From contig JAJPZP010000267.1 of assembly GCA_021204285.1 (NCBI GenBank), forward strand, positions 1 to 6,697: 6,697 bases of DNA, written 5' to 3'. Below are positions 796-6,697 of the stretch, one piece after another; positions within the stretch are counted from its first letter, which is position 1; each line of letters starts with the position of its first letter. The position numbers were made by a program, and so were the translations under genes. This DNA comes from Lachnospiraceae bacterium (lineage in GTDB: Bacteria > Bacillota > Clostridia > Lachnospirales > Lachnospiraceae). Below the pieces are notes generated by a model, which was not told the origin of the DNA, did not search any database, and saw only the letters and a list, made by a program, of their open reading frames with translations.

Positions 796-862
796 GATAC
801 AAGAGCTTCTGAAACGGCCGTACACATTAGATTTTGTGCCTGACGAGGAGGTCAGCGAATGA
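791..862 (+). CDS. Possible 23-residue leader frame coupled to brxA
   Basis: ATG 791 (or ATG 794) opens a frame of 23 codons containing LLKRPYTLDFVPDEEVSE. Its TGA at 860-862 overlaps the brxA ATG at 859-861 (ATGA), the arrangement typical of translational coupling. The predicted residues look like ordinary protein. Against it, no ribosome binding site precedes either ATG, and ATG 791 lies inside the predicted -10 box, so a transcript from that promoter would lack the start. It may be a relic of a former upstream gene, a leader translated from another promoter, or chance. Confidence 0.25.
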   Translation: MMIQELLKRPYTLDFVPDEEVSE

Positions 863-1488
863 CGATAAAGAATACAGCGGTTCTGAAGGGCACAAGCCCC
901 TACAGTGCTGTGATTACGAGGGAGCAGTTCCTCTTTTATGAGACAAGGACAACGGCAAAGCTGGTGACGGAGGGACTGTCACGAGAGGAAGTCGTGAACC
1001 GGATTGTCGCTGATAACCTGTTCCAATATCCGACGGAGAAATCCGTGCGGCGTATGGCTCTCACATGTCTGAAACGCCTGGATGCTCTGGAGGATGATTC
1101 TCTTGTGGCGACGATTGCCAGGCGTCCACAGGATACGGCAAAACAAATCTGCCTGTACGCGATGATGAAGCAGTACCGATTGATCTGGGATTTTATGATT
1201 ACCGTAATTGGTGAGAAGTACCGTTTATTGGACACCTCATTTGGGAAAATAGATATCAACGGATATTTTCTGCGCCTGCAGGAGCAGGACGACTGGGTGG
1301 CGACCTGGAGCGATTCTACCATAACGAAGCTCAAGCAGGTCCTGCTCAAGCTTTTGGTGGACAATGAGTATCTGGACAGCACGAAATCAGAAAAGCTGAA
1401 CCCGGTGTTGATTAGCCCTATACTGGAGGCCGCGATCCGGGAAAGCGGAAACGCACAGGCACTCACGGCATTTAACTGTTTTGGATAA
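859..1488 (+). CDS. brxA: BREX protein BrxA (DUF1819)
   Basis: The product is 209 residues, normal for BrxA/DUF1819. The N-terminal half carries the family hallmarks: SAVITREQFLFYETRTTAKL, then EGLSREEVVNRIVADNLFQYPTE followed by SVRRMALTCLKRLDAL (roughly residues 16-76). Characterised BrxA proteins are small, helical, DNA-binding proteins needed for full BREX defence, though their exact step is not settled. The start is fixed by AGGAGGT at 846-852, seven bases before ATG 859. It is the first gene of the operon, 40 bases before brxB. I see no frame break or missing segment. Identification rests on sequence pattern plus the brxA-brxB-brxC-pglX order. Confidence 0.93.
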   Translation: MTIKNTAVLKGTSPYSAVITREQFLFYETRTTAKLVTEGLSREEVVNRIVADNLFQYPTEKSVRRMALTCLKRLDALEDDSLVATIARRPQDTAKQICLYAMMKQYRLIWDFMITVIGEKYRLLDTSFGKIDINGYFLRLQEQDDWVATWSDSTITKLKQVLLKLLVDNEYLDSTKSEKLNPVLISPILEAAIRESGNAQALTAFNCFG

Positions 1489-1528: not shown

Positions 1529-2086
1529 ATGGGTAATCTGAACGAACGGCTCGACAGCCTGAGGGCTTTGATTCAGGAACCGGATTTTCTGGATGGCAAG
1601 GGATTAAGCAATGAGGTCAACATCCGCATCTTCTGTTATGATGAAGCGGATGAGATGGCAGTCCGGCATTTCGTGGGGCAGCTGAAAACAGACCAGTCTC
1701 TGAACTGCCATCTGGTGGAATATGATTTATACAAGCTGTTTCTTTCCATCTGTGACGACATGGGAATTACGGAGGAAATACCGGATGTAGAGGAAAATGA
1801 CGGTCCGGAGTATCTTCTGGATCAGCTTCACGGCTCGGTAGGCGAAGGCGAGTTCATAGAGAAAATGATGTATTCTCCCCATGAGCGAGGGGATGTGATA
1901 TTGCTTACCGGCGTCGGCGATGTGTTTCCATTCATGAGGGTTCATGCATTGCTGGAATCCATGCAGGTGGATTTCTCAGATGTTCCTATCCTCGTCATGT
2001 ATCCGGGAGAATTTGATGGGCGGCATTTGAAGCTTTTCGATAGATTGAAGCCAAACGACTATTACAGAGCGTTTAACGTAGTGTAA
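1529..2086 (+). CDS. brxB: BREX protein BrxB (DUF1788)
   Basis: The product is 185 residues, close to the usual ~190-200 for BrxB/DUF1788. Family features are the early RIFCYDEADEM segment (about residues 31-41), a central GDVILLTGVGDVFPFMRVHALLE stretch and the highly typical C-terminus with MYPGEFDGRHLKLFDRLKPN followed by DYYRAFNVV. BrxB is a core, non-enzymatic-looking component of type I BREX, required for defence; its biochemical role is not established. The ribosome binding site GAGGAGG ends at 1518. ATG 1524 is nearer to it but gives only five codons (MTWVI), so ATG 1529, which opens the conserved frame, is chosen. The gene appears intact and lies 67 bases upstream of brxC. Confidence 0.93.
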   Translation: MGNLNERLDSLRALIQEPDFLDGKGLSNEVNIRIFCYDEADEMAVRHFVGQLKTDQSLNCHLVEYDLYKLFLSICDDMGITEEIPDVEENDGPEYLLDQLHGSVGEGEFIEKMMYSPHERGDVILLTGVGDVFPFMRVHALLESMQVDFSDVPILVMYPGEFDGRHLKLFDRLKPNDYYRAFNVV

Positions 2087-2153: not shown

Positions 2154-5100
2154 ATGAAGATAAGCGAAATGTTTGCGGAGGACATCAACCGTCCTATCAA
2201 TGGCGTCATCAAGGTAGACCAGGATTCGGAGGATGTCACAAGGCAGGAAGTACAGGAATATGTCATCACCAAGGAACTGAAAAAACACTTTATCAGCTTC
2301 TTTGATTTTTACAGTGAAAGTGTTCAGAATCCGACCCCGACAGCGGCGGGTGGATTTCGGGATTCTTTGGAAGTGGTAAATCGCACTTCCTGAAAATGTT
2401 GTCCTACCTGTTGGAGAATAAGCGTGTGAATGGCGTACCGACTGTCGAGATGTTTCGCAGCAAGTTTGCGGATGATCCGGCGACATTTATGCTGATTGAT
2501 AATTCCACCCGGTATGATACAGAGACTATTCTGTTTAACATTGATATCGAAGGCTCCATCAACAAGGATAAGACCGCTGTTCTCCGCGTCTTTGCGAAGA
2601 TGTTCTATAAGCATCTTGGCTTTTACGGCGAGAATCTGAAGGTCGCTATGATGGAGCGGTACATCGACCAGCAGGGAAAGACCGAGGAGTTCCGGCGTGT
2701 ATTCGAGCAGAAAAAGGGAAAGCCGTGGCTGGAGCAGCGCAAGGCGTTTGCTTTCAACGGCAAGGTCATCATTCCTACCCTGATGGAAGTGCTGGATATG
2801 AGCGAGGAAGATGCACGGAACTGGTATCAGGATAAATCTTCCGTGGAGTATTCAATCTCAAGCCTTGTGAAAGACATCAAGGCTTATGTTGATTCGAAAC
2901 CGGAGAATTTCCGCCTACTGTTCATGGTGGATGAGGTCGGTCAGTATGTTGGTACAGACACCGATATGCTCTTAAACCTCCAGTCCCTTACCGAGAAGCT
3001 CGGCAGTGAGTGCGAGGGAAAAGTCTGGGTGGTATGCACCGGGCAGGAAGCCATCGATGAGATTATCAAAGTTCGTGCGGACGAGTTCTCCCGTATTCAG
3101 GCACGTTTCAAAACACGCCTCTCTCTGTCCTCTTCTTCTGTGGATGAGGTCATCCAGAAGCGTGTGCTGAAGAAGAAACCGGAATACGAGAAGCGTCTGC
3201 AGGAAGTTTATGATACAAACGATTCCACCCTTCGGAATCTGTATACGTTCCGTGACTCCATCCTTGACATCAAGGGATTTGAAGGATCGCAGGAATTTTC
3301 GGATGATTTCCCGTTCGTGCCTTACCAGTTTATCATCATGCAGAAGGTATTCGCAGAGATTCGTAAGCACGGGAACTCCGGCAAGCACCTCTCCGGCGGC
3401 GCGCGTTCCATGCTCTGCGTGTTCCAGGAGGCCGCACAGAAGGTGCAGGAAAACGCCGAATTTGCCCACCTGGCGTTCTTCCGTTTTTATGATACCGTAC
3501 ATAGCTTTCTCGACGGCTCGATCCGTCGGGTGATTGAACGTTGCCAGAAGGCGGCGGACAGCGGCTTCGGTATTGAGCAGCAGGATGTGGATGTATTGAA
3601 GCTCCTGTATCTCATCCGCTACGTGGATGACATTCCGGCAAACCTCGATAATATTGTAATTCTGATGGCGGATGATATTCGCACGGATAAACTAACGCTT
3701 CGTGAAAAGATGCGCGGCAGTCTTGACCGCCTGCTCAGCCAGAACTATATCGGCCGTAACGGGGAAGTATATAACTTCCTGACTGACGAGGAGCAGGATA
3801 TTGCGAGGGAGATTCGCAACACGAACGTGGACACCTCTGCCATCGTGACGCAGCTGGGCCGTATGATTTTCGGTGATCTTTATCAGACGAAAAAGTACCG
3901 TTACGGCAAGTATGATTTTGACTTCGACAAGATGGTGGACGGTATGGCGGTCGGCGCTGTCACGGGTGGGATGCGTCTGCGTTTCCTGACGGTTGCCACT
4001 GACCCGACCGAAAAAAATGAGCTGCACCTTATGACGCAGTCCAAAGGACAGGCTCTCGTCGTTCTGCCGGAAGCAAAGTATTATGAGTCAGTAGAAAATG
4101 CCATGAAGATTCGGAAGTATGTGAAACAGCGTAACGTGTCGCAGCTTCCCGGCTCCATGCATACGATTATTAAAAAGCAGCAGGAAGAGGCAGATGCTTA
4201 TGAGGCATCCTCTGCCGATGAACTGAAGGAGGCAATCGAAAACGCAGCCTTTTATGTGGATGGAGAACATCTGGTGATTAAGGGCGGCGACGCAAAATCA
4301 AAGATTGACCAGGCGTTGGAGTATCTCGTTATCCATGTATACAGCGACCTCGACCTGATTACCAAAAACGCGGAGACAGATGCCGACATCTATTCGATTC
4401 TGCGGAAGGAAGAAACCCTGCTCCCCGGCACGGAGCCAAATCGCGATGCGGCGGCGAAGATGGAGGAATATCTGGAGGTTCAGCATAAGCGGAATCTCCC
4501 GACTTCTATGGCGGATGTGCAGAGCCGGTATCAGGGGATTCCCTATGGCTGGCGTGAGATTGATATCGCCGCCGTAGCCGCACAGCTGATTGTTGACCAG
4601 AAGGTCACCATCAAGTATGCCGGCACCACCATCCAGCCGGATAATCCGAAGCTGCCGGATATGCTTCGTAAAAAGAGCGAAATCGGCAAGACCAGCATCT
4701 CCAAGCGTATCTTAAATTCTGCAGCGAACATCCGCGAGGCGCGGGAATTCCTGCGCGAGTATTTTGAAGTGATGGATGTTCCCCAGGATGAGGACGGGCT
4801 GATCGCATTTATGATAAAGAAATTCAGTGAGCAGCGTGATTACTACGCGGAACTGGATCAGAAATACGCTGGGCATAAATACCCTGACCACGCTCTTGTG
4901 TCGCAGGCAATCCAGTTGACAGAGGATGTCCTGAGCCAGCAGAAGGACAATATTGCCCTTGTGCAGCGACTGCTAAAGCGCATGGATGACCTTGACGACA
5001 ACAAGGAAAAAATGCAGCGTGTGGAGAACTTCTTCAAGAGCCAGGTAAAGGTGTTTGATGCAGCAGTCAAGCTGGAAGCTGACCTGCGTCATGAGTTGGA

Positions 5101-5716
5101 CTACCTCTCCCATGAGCCGGAAGCCAATGATGCCTTGAATCAGATCCGGCTGATTTGCATCGTGCAGACTGGTGGAAAGTTTGATTACCGGCGCATTCCG
5201 GAACTGAATGGGCTGATGTCCAAAGTTCACGAAGGGCATGACCGTCTGCTTGCTGCCAAGCGCGAGGAGCTTTTGGAGATTGTCCGCCAGTGCATGGAGG
5301 CAATCCACACGGCAGCCGATGGAGATTTTAATTCCAGGAATATCATCCAGATGGCTGATAACTTCTATACGGCAAAGAAGCAGCAGATAGCAGAATATGA
5401 AAGCCTCGCTCTTCTGGACGGCCTGATTCCGCCGATGCTCCAGGAGAAGGACAAGGCGGTGGAGAGGCTGGAAGCGGCGAAGCGTTCTGTCCAGACAGTG
5501 CAGTCGGAGGCGAAGCCACTCTTTATCCATGAACCGGAAATACAGGATGGAACGAAAAAACAGACGCCAAAGAAAATCTATAAAAGCCTGAACCGGTCCA
5601 TCGTCTTTCCTGCAAAGCGGCTGGAAAATGAGGATGAGATTGACGCCTATGTGGAGAAGATGCGGGATACGCTGCGGCAGCTTTTGAAGAACTGCGACGG
5701 CATTGATTTGAAGTGA
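2154..5716 (+). CDS. brxC: BREX P-loop ATPase BrxC, interrupted by a one-base frameshift
   Basis: BrxC is the large AAA+-like ATPase of type I BREX. The gene starts at ATG 2154 after a purine-rich ribosome site (AAGGAG/GGGAGG, 2132-2145) with the typical opening MKISEMFAEDINRPINGVIK. That frame continues to NPTP (2328-2339) and then runs into TGA 2391-2393. The rest is in the -1 frame: from 2339 it reads DSGGWISGFFGSGKSHFLKM and continues to TGA 5714-5716. Joined, the protein would be about 1187 residues, normal for BrxC. Walker A GFFGSGKS is at joined residues 70-77 (2360-2383), Walker B LLFMVDE ends at D260-E261 (2930-2935), a sensor-like VCTGQ is near 294-298, and an arginine-rich ARFKTRLSLSS follows. 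The C-terminal half is mostly helical and charged. ATG 2396 would start after the Walker lysine and give an ATPase-dead fragment. The gene is a pseudogene if the base change is real. Confidence 0.9.
2318..2393 (+). other. Frameshift zone in brxC, before and over Walker A
   Basis: The upstream frame is closed by TGA 2391-2393, and the downstream frame is closed on its 5' side by TGA 2315-2317, so the break must lie between. Protein conservation narrows it to about 2337-2352. Adding one base after CCCCG (2335-2339), or re-reading G2339, restores NPTP-DSGGWISGFFGSGKS without loss. A four-C run is the only homopolymer there. No standard X-XXY-YYZ slippery heptamer is present in the upstream frame, so programmed -1 frameshifting is not supported. 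Confidence 0.85.
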
Positions 5717-5726
5717 GGATACTGCA

Positions 5727-6695
5727 ATGGATAAGAACGCGATAAAAAAATATGCGACATGGGCAAGGCGCGAATTGATTTCCCGTGTATCCCAGAAGGC
5801 GGAGTTCTACGGCGTAACAGCGGAGGAATATGGCGACTTCCATGCAGCCAGCATTGATGGTCGTGTTCTGTCGCCTACGGAGAAAATGCAGAGACAGGCG
5901 CTGATTGATAAAGTTCGCTCAGAAGGCTATGAGCAGGCGATGGAGGAAGTGGCGTACACCTGGTTTAACCGTTTTTCTGCCCTGCGTTATATGGAGGTCA
6001 ACAATTACCTCCCCACTCGTGTGCGCGTCTTTACCAATGAGAATGGCGAATTCAAGCCGCAGATTATTGACGAAGCGATCCATCTGGAACTGGACGGGCT
6101 GGACATGGAGAAGATCTATTCTCTCAAGGAAACGAATGACACAGAGGCACTGTATCGTTATCTGCTGATTACCCAGTGCAATGCGTTAAGCAAAATCATG
6201 CCGGTCATGTTCCAGAAGATTTCCGACTACACGGAGTTGCTTCTGCCGGATTATCTTCTCCGTGAAGGTAGCGTAATCGAGCAGATGGTGACGTCAATTC
6301 CGGAAGAAGACTGGACCGACCAGGTGCAGATTATCGGTTGGCTGTATCAGTATTATAATGCGGAAAAGAAGGACGAGGTCTTTGCTGCACTGAAGAAAAA
6401 CGTGAAGATTACGAAGGAGAATATACCTGCCGCTACCCAGTTGTTTACGCCGGACTGGATTGTGCGCTATATGGTTGAGAATTCTCTCGGACGTCTGTGG
6501 GTGGAGGGGAATCCAAACGAGCAGCTGAAATCCGGGTGGAAATACTATCTGGAGGAAGCCGAACAGGAAGCGGATGTTGAAGCACAGCTTGCGGAAATTC
6601 GAAAGGAATATGCCGCGCTGAAACCGGAAGAAATCCTATGCATCGAAATTCCCACTCAACTTTTAATACAATCTGGCGATAGATTATGTGCGTGA
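5727..6695 (+). CDS. pglX: BREX adenine-specific DNA methyltransferase PglX, truncated after the N-terminal region
   Basis: PglX (BrxX) is the N6-adenine methyltransferase that marks host DNA in BREX; intact type I proteins are around 1200 residues. This frame has 322 codons. The start ATG 5727 follows GAGG (5715-5718), which overlaps the brxC stop region, and opens with the family-typical MDKNAIKKYATWARRELI. Further hallmarks are ALRYMEVNNYLPTRVRVF (about 84-101) and TQLFTPDWIVRYMVENSLGR at 237-256. Similarity continues through LKPEEILCI (residues 298-306). There the family normally reads DPC-x-GSGH (SAM-binding motif I), but here the frame gives EIPTQLLIQSGDRLCA and stops at TGA 6693-6695. 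No methyltransferase motif is encoded, so this product should be inactive. The 16-residue tail lies in A/T-richer sequence, suggesting an inserted or rearranged segment at about 6645. The missing part may lie beyond the window. Confidence 0.9.
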   Translation: MDKNAIKKYATWARRELISRVSQKAEFYGVTAEEYGDFHAASIDGRVLSPTEKMQRQALIDKVRSEGYEQAMEEVAYTWFNRFSALRYMEVNNYLPTRVRVFTNENGEFKPQIIDEAIHLELDGLDMEKIYSLKETNDTEALYRYLLITQCNALSKIMPVMFQKISDYTELLLPDYLLREGSVIEQMVTSIPEEDWTDQVQIIGWLYQYYNAEKKDEVFAALKKNVKITKENIPAATQLFTPDWIVRYMVENSLGRLWVEGNPNEQLKSGWKYYLEEAEQEADVEAQLAEIRKEYAALKPEEILCIEIPTQLLIQSGDRLCA

Positions 6696-6697
6696 GT
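6645..6697. other. Junction with foreign sequence inside pglX
   Basis: From about 6645 the sequence no longer encodes PglX. The final 50 bases are about 38% G+C, lower than the pglX sequence before them. I recognise no terminal inverted repeat or transposase motif in so short a piece. On the minus strand one frame is open across the whole tail, and another ends with TGA at 6656-6658, near the junction, as a gene at the end of a mobile element might. Candidates are an insertion sequence edge, an inversion junction or an assembly chimera. Confidence 0.5.

Follow-up and report, generated by a model that had tools for sequence, protein, structure and literature searches.

A BREX pglX gene interrupted at the motif I Asp codon by an integrative element, probably a temperate phage placed by large serine recombinases

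The BREX operon and the interrupted pglX

The window, that is, the whole stretch of DNA analysed here (6,697 nucleotides from a Lachnospiraceae bacterium), is the entire contig C75; the assembly totals 2,188,130 bases, is divided into 272 contigs and has a completeness of 88.5%. It contains the start of a BREX type 1 operon: from the type 1 set, brxA, brxB, brxC and the 5' part of pglX are present, and the contig stops before pglZ and brxL. Its features are the following:

859..1488, plus strand: brxA (Pfam BrxA, PF08849)
1529..2086, plus strand: brxB (Pfam BrxB, PF08747)
2154..5716, plus strand: brxC, split by a frameshift near 2327-2339 (NCBIfam BREX_BrxC on 2396-5716)
5727..6644, plus strand: 5' part of pglX, 306 codons (NCBIfam BREX_1_MTaseX, positions 1-318 of 1210)
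6645..6697, plus strand: left end of an integrative element, first 53 bases (the same 53 bases in 8 copies in 7 other genomes)
6645..6646, plus strand: GA, predicted crossover core (GA at the left and right junctions of relatives)
6664..6669, plus strand: TAATAC arm motif, 17 bases from the core (the arm rule given below matches the window once, at 6645)

Beside the operon, a TIGR00730 or lysine-decarboxylase-like gene lies on the minus strand (71-643) and appears ordinary. The brxC gene was recovered with an intact relative (tblastn) in two frames, 2154-2339 and 2327-5710, which places the frameshift just 5' of Walker A. This frameshift may be real decay or an assembly error, and would fit an operon released from selection.

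The similarity to PglX stops at 6644, directly before the Asp codon that opens motif I, and in an alignment six relatives continue at the break column with DPCxGSGH. The first-pass annotation, made from the letters alone, had described a pglX abruptly cut where motif I should start and followed by an unrelated tail of lower G+C content, and both descriptions hold: the 53 bases of the tail have 37.7% G+C, and the frame is closed by EIPTQLLIQSGDRLCA and a stop codon at 6693-6695. The GA at 6645-6646 stands in for the GA of the Asp codon GAY. Since contig C75 ends at position 6697, just these 53 bases of the insert are visible; we infer that assembly broke off there at a left end common to several prophages of the sample. 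The arm motif has a single match in the window, at 6645, with both strands scanned.

In the 88.5%-complete assembly, a profile search gave no further piece of pglX, and no second copy of the tail was found with up to 3 mismatches. A search for PF20466 in the same genome led nowhere. A recombinase fragment on G000:C270 (59%) was also recorded, with no tie to the insert of the window established. As a candidate origin of the tail, the 3' end of pglX itself was considered and rejected, the 13/14 base match to L014 having a score within the shuffle range.

Left ends, right ends and recombinases of related elements

An 18-base piece of the tail, used as query against a genome collection, gave 17 stretches, nine with the 18-mer only and eight with at least 37 bases in common. 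In seven of these eight, the whole tail is present and runs on into GGTGGGGACAAA-type sequence before diverging; a second left-end copy in G062 was found afterwards. Full left ends besides that of the window amount to 8 copies in 7 genomes, six of them with 0 mismatches and two with 1 mismatch over the 53 bases. The seven genomes are metagenome-assembled and labelled Lachnospiraceae, Clostridiales or Clostridiaceae, and have similar accessions, so they perhaps come from one study. Among 392 genomes of the order, a search for the tail pattern that allowed up to 3 mismatches recovered nothing but the genome of the window, and a tail pattern had 0 matches in IMG/VR.

All eight left ends adjoin an adenine methyltransferase gene that is interrupted immediately 5' of the Asp codon of motif I (DPxxGSG). 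Seven of the interrupted genes are of the N6_Mtase (PF02384) or HsdM type, with profile matches ending at positions 43-52, and the eighth is a second pglX (L032, in G068), cut at the same codon as the pglX of the window. Counting the window, 9/9 integrated left ends of this type stand at the same methyltransferase codon. The junction is thus more than a chance one, since other methyltransferase genes run into these 53 bases at the corresponding codon and the window has a single arm motif. The sharp edge had been read in the first-pass annotation as typical of an insertion or a recombination junction; an insertion junction made by a recombinase is supported by the shared tail (0-1 mismatches) in other methyltransferase genes. 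In G062, another methyltransferase first half (C217:2271-2423, L118; profile positions 2-52), which ends near motif I, lacks this left end and perhaps marks another element in this position.

Methyltransferase halves starting at profile position 50 also came up in the PF02384 search. Before three of these halves, two in G062 and one in G064, stands a right end, ACAGATAGTGTTTGTATCAAAGATAGCGTCCGGATA, that continues directly into GATCC, the Asp-Pro codons of motif I, and all three right ends have one and the same terminal sequence. Among the 9 genomes searched with the right-end pattern, it was matched in G062 (twice) and G064 (once), with no match in G000 or the other six. Read together, the two ends give GTATCA-N17-GA-N17-TAATAC, whose arms are inverted repeats around GA, with a symmetry at 17 of 27 positions that was matched by 2 of 20,000 shuffles. 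We take this to be the form of the attP of a large serine recombinase. Two inverted arms, a 2-bp core and the halves of the site at both junctions are all seen in this way through the junctions of relatives, and two viral contigs, L146 and L192, contain intact GA-core sites of the same form. None of the elements is assembled over its full length, and left ends could therefore not be matched to right ends.

The GA at both junctions in relatives implies that precise excision would rejoin the gene. Of the switchable pglX allele suggested in the first-pass annotation, a switch by excision is possible, no excised form having been seen, and a switch by inversion is not supported by the incomplete assembly. 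An empty site of the same gene was sought in G063, where the occupied hsdM (L120) shares 89% of 807 bases with an empty hsdM (L129); at this identity the latter is a paralog or comes from another strain, and gives no proof of excision. In G065, the last of the eight stretches with at least 37 bases in common (L024) has a separate attP-like site (3911-3974; GTATCA-N17-GA-N17-TAATAC) with the left arm of the window and outside any methyltransferase, an exception to the pattern; a truncated open reading frame beside it is presumably terminase-like.

In G061, G063, G067 and G068, a large serine recombinase is encoded 0.7-1.6 kb inward from the left end, that of G067 being cut by the contig end and that of G061 having a stop near its end. 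Both G062 copies have a C-terminal recombinase piece at the contig end, G064 has only a recombinase remnant near its left end, and near the left end of G066 none was found. A Pfam scan of the recombinases of G061 and G068 identified Resolvase, Recombinase and zinc-ribbon domains, with no match to DUF4368 in either of the two; the domains of a large serine recombinase element are in this way present in relatives with the same left end. The recombinases, that of G063 included, match the integrase family phrog_95 (PHROGs), and their relatives of solved structure include the SPbeta, TP901-1 and TnpX proteins. A second recombinase is located directly upstream in 65 of the 75 loci with room for it. 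Inward from the left end of G063, the genes encode, in this order, a 303-aa protein without a clear family, two recombinases of 527 and then 608 aa, a small protein of phrog_2308, an amidase, a holin and a protein of phrog_19291. Between the left end and the recombinase, both G063 and G068 (L120, 8020-8931; L085) encode a protein that starts with MSEKKHKKIS and fits no clear family, a candidate helper. Behind the left end of G066 lie genes for an anti-repressor, a major tail protein and a tail terminator.

The carrier of the element is likely a temperate phage, as argued by the amidase, holin and phage-family genes behind the G063 pair, by the tail genes of G066 and by the recombinase relatives in phages; for the insert of the window itself, this would hold by extension. 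The sequences behind the right ends carry defence genes. Behind that of L080 (1286-18462, G062:C53) are BrxP, BrxC, PglZ, BrxL and a DndA/SspA-like protein, and the first four we take to be a BREX type 4 set; an element integrated in one defence gene may thus bring along a second defence system. Behind the right end of L081 are a D12 methyltransferase, N6_N4 methyltransferases, a MutH-like protein and a GmrSD protein, and behind that of L079 a GmrSD-like HEC-05 protein.

The target of related recombinases

The 527-aa recombinase of G063 was used as the sole query against IMG/VR, and the best 80 of 599 confirmed stretches (59-74% identical) were analysed. Among these best 80 of 599, 11 distinct left junctions were first located by methyltransferase similarity alone, and GA is at the cut in 11/11. 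An arm rule, GA[AT]A-N15-T[AG]ATAC[AG][AG], composed after the junctions were seen, located 27 arms in 27 loci of the same best 80 of 599, downstream of the recombinase. The wrong strand and the reversed sequence gave 0 arms each, and 20 shuffles together gave 4. In the other 53 of these best 80 of 599 there is no arm by the final rule, and so no target. Subtracting from the 27 arms the intact attP sites of L146 and L192, the contig-end cuts of L131 and L175, and L206, which repeats L133, leaves 22 distinct flanks; outside these counts stand L208, with methyltransferase matches away from a defined junction, and L148, which fits a looser rule only. Among the best 80 of 599, 20 of the 22 distinct host flanks read as methyltransferases, 15 cut at motif I and 5 at DPPY:

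Motif I cut, HsdM-type by Pfam: L132, L133, L135, L137, L140, L145
Motif I cut, N6_Mtase match below Pfam's cut-off: L139, L144
Motif I cut, pglX: L142 (74% identical to the pglX of the window, adjoining brxC)
Motif I cut, MmeI domains: L179
Motif I cut, by tblastn only: L154, L167, L171
Motif I cut, by the motif only (weak): L156
Motif I cut, by eye over 17 residues (weak): L147
Cut before DPPY: L134, L157, L160, L169, L173 (related to each other)

The uncut relatives of L156 continue with DPAAGIGNF or EPSCGVGNF, those with an annotation being helicase-family proteins. For L160 and L134, relatives with the annotation site-specific DNA-methyltransferase continue with DPPYNTGN. As to the remaining two of the 22 flanks, that of L174 is not a methyltransferase and lies inside a recombinase gene, and that of L187 had no match in phages and no Pfam identification. 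In L199 (near 7386) and L204 (near 3614), the second half of a methyltransferase gene, which in L204 is again pglX, starts at the same Asp codon beside a mirror arm. It is the end near the recombinase that meets the second half there, so the attP is turned round relative to the recombinase genes while the site is unchanged.

What the cut genes have in common at the junction are the codons for a hydrophobic strand followed by Asp-Pro. The recombinases of L171 and L173 are 95.4% identical, one with a motif I methyltransferase and the other with a DPPY methyltransferase; those of L140 and L144 are 94.3% identical and have two different N6 methyltransferases. The left end of the window, in turn, occurs both in HsdM-type genes and in pglX. 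Since recombinases of 94-95% identity occur in different methyltransferase families, the Asp-Pro region, rather than one gene, appears, as judged from these sequences, to be the target. In a tree of the recombinases, which left out 12 of 84 with internal stops, the methyltransferase label does not cluster, requiring 6 changes against a mean of 5.6 after shuffling. The recombinase may read GATCC-like DNA, the strand codons, or both.

Proposed mechanism, alternatives and known systems

The pglX gene of the window has very probably been interrupted at the Asp codon of motif I by an integrative element, likely a temperate phage placed by serine recombinases, with the Asp-Pro codons as attB. The attB would be the DNA around the catalytic Asp-Pro codons of adenine methyltransferases, either in motif I (DPxxGSG) or in DPPY; this would account for the cut at one and the same codon in HsdM, PglX, MmeI-type and DPPY methyltransferases. 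The predicted site of crossover by the recombinase is the GA of the Asp codon GAY, and each half of the gene would then carry one half of attP. The insert of the window would carry such recombinases, and these would have made its junction. The methyltransferase would lose motif I and everything after it, leaving PglX, and hence BREX, presumably inactive; excision would restore the Asp codon, since the core belongs to the codon. In type I and BREX systems the loss of the methyltransferase would end methylation and defence together, which would make it tolerable to the host.

The strongest competitor is an integrative and conjugative (ICE) or mobilizable element with serine integrases, rather than a phage, and we regard it as unlikely, though with a real share of the probability. 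Streptococcal ICEs with serine integrase triplets are indeed described in hsdM, with 2-8 bp repeats, in the available text of PMC4701971; the cargo of the insert is out of view, with 53 bases visible in the window, and the annotated parts behind the right ends of relatives are defence genes without virion genes. Against this, G063, with the same left end, has an amidase, a holin and a phage-family protein behind its recombinase pair, G066 has tail genes, and close relatives of the recombinases are found in phages.

That pglX is intact in the cell and the junction an assembly chimera or contig-end error, the case that the first-pass annotation had named as refuting its reading, is far less probable still. 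The assembly is fragmented, the contig ends 53 bases after the junction, and the tail is common to elements of other genomes; yet the same join is found in other genomes, including the second pglX of G068, related ends occur in the pglX of L142 and L204, and a chance chimera would miss the shared codon. Hardly credible is a phase-variable pglX in which a recombinase inverts one allele against another. This was the lead of the first-pass annotation, from pglX inversion in lactobacilli (for which no paper was found), and a recombinase family is linked to the site; but the search it had proposed for an inverted pglX copy with a recombinase gave one pglX match only in the incomplete assembly, with no second or inverted piece, and the tail is the end of an element that is found at many methyltransferase genes unrelated to pglX. 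Random transposon insertion into a decaying operon, to which the frameshifted brxC and the accumulation of inserts in decaying genes might point, is practically dismissed by the single methyltransferase codon shared by 9/9 left ends and likewise by 20/22 related flanks (best 80 of 599).

Returning to the interruption of pglX by a recombinase-placed element, the chances seem to us about even that a whole clade of tandem phage serine integrases uses the catalytic Asp-Pro codons of methyltransferases (motif I or DPPY) as a universal attB, and so reads a protein motif that adenine methyltransferases have to keep. Such phages would lysogenize any host with a restriction-modification or BREX methylase, disable that defence on arrival while supplying defence genes of their own, and restore the gene intact when they leave; as the enzyme needs its catalytic residues, the host could not easily lose the landing site. 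If this were true, broken hsdM and pglX genes in gut genomes would represent reversible lysogeny and not decay, lysogeny would be tied to the loss of restriction and BREX, and these integrases would have a defined, motif-like target. Whether prophage induction restores methylation is a testable question.

Among known recombinases, the SPbeta integrase (YokA), the TP901-1 integrase and TnpX are sequence relatives, all of them serine recombinases of phages or transposons. They have different target genes, and TnpX has a GA core. Two phages deposited as Ca. Heliusvirales (PV036449.1 and PV036426.1) have, at the corresponding place, genes for a minor tail protein and an endolysin followed by those for two large proteins, the second of which is 69% and 68% identical, respectively, to the 527-aa recombinase of G063. 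The likeness consists of recombinase similarity and gene order; the viral order shares nine core genes, as stated in the available text of PMC9226167. The main text of this paper on Ca. Heliusviridae, as far as it was accessible, does not contain the words integrase, methyltransferase or attachment.

The multi-targeting large serine recombinases of Durrant et al. 2022 (PMC10083194) are alike in that one recombinase has several target genes with a short conserved target, as described in the accessible part of that paper. Their example has a TT core, and here the core is GA and the targets are methyltransferases. The same accessible text reports no target enrichment in or near defence genes, the multi-targeting clade being left out of that analysis, and its main text, to that extent, contains neither methyltransferase nor methylase. 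Such insertions are likewise not described in the portions available of PMC8637289 and PMC11318856, and within the open-licence literature no paper was found that joins pglX or BREX with a serine recombinase.

The closest known case is that of the serine integrase triplets of streptococcal ICEs, which insert in hsdM and disrupt it (available text of PMC4701971 and PMC7563491). The kind of element, and hsdM as a target of serine integrases in streptococcal ICEs, are therefore already known, as far as those texts go. Both systems have several serine integrases, a short core and an insertion inside a methyltransferase gene that is disrupted; unlike the ICEs, compared here by their description in that available text, the elements reported here mostly have a recombinase pair and phage genes. 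Relative to the hsdM insertions so described, the targets here add PglX, MmeI-type and DPPY methyltransferases, all at one Asp-Pro codon, and within the open-licence literature this motif-defined set of targets appears to be new.
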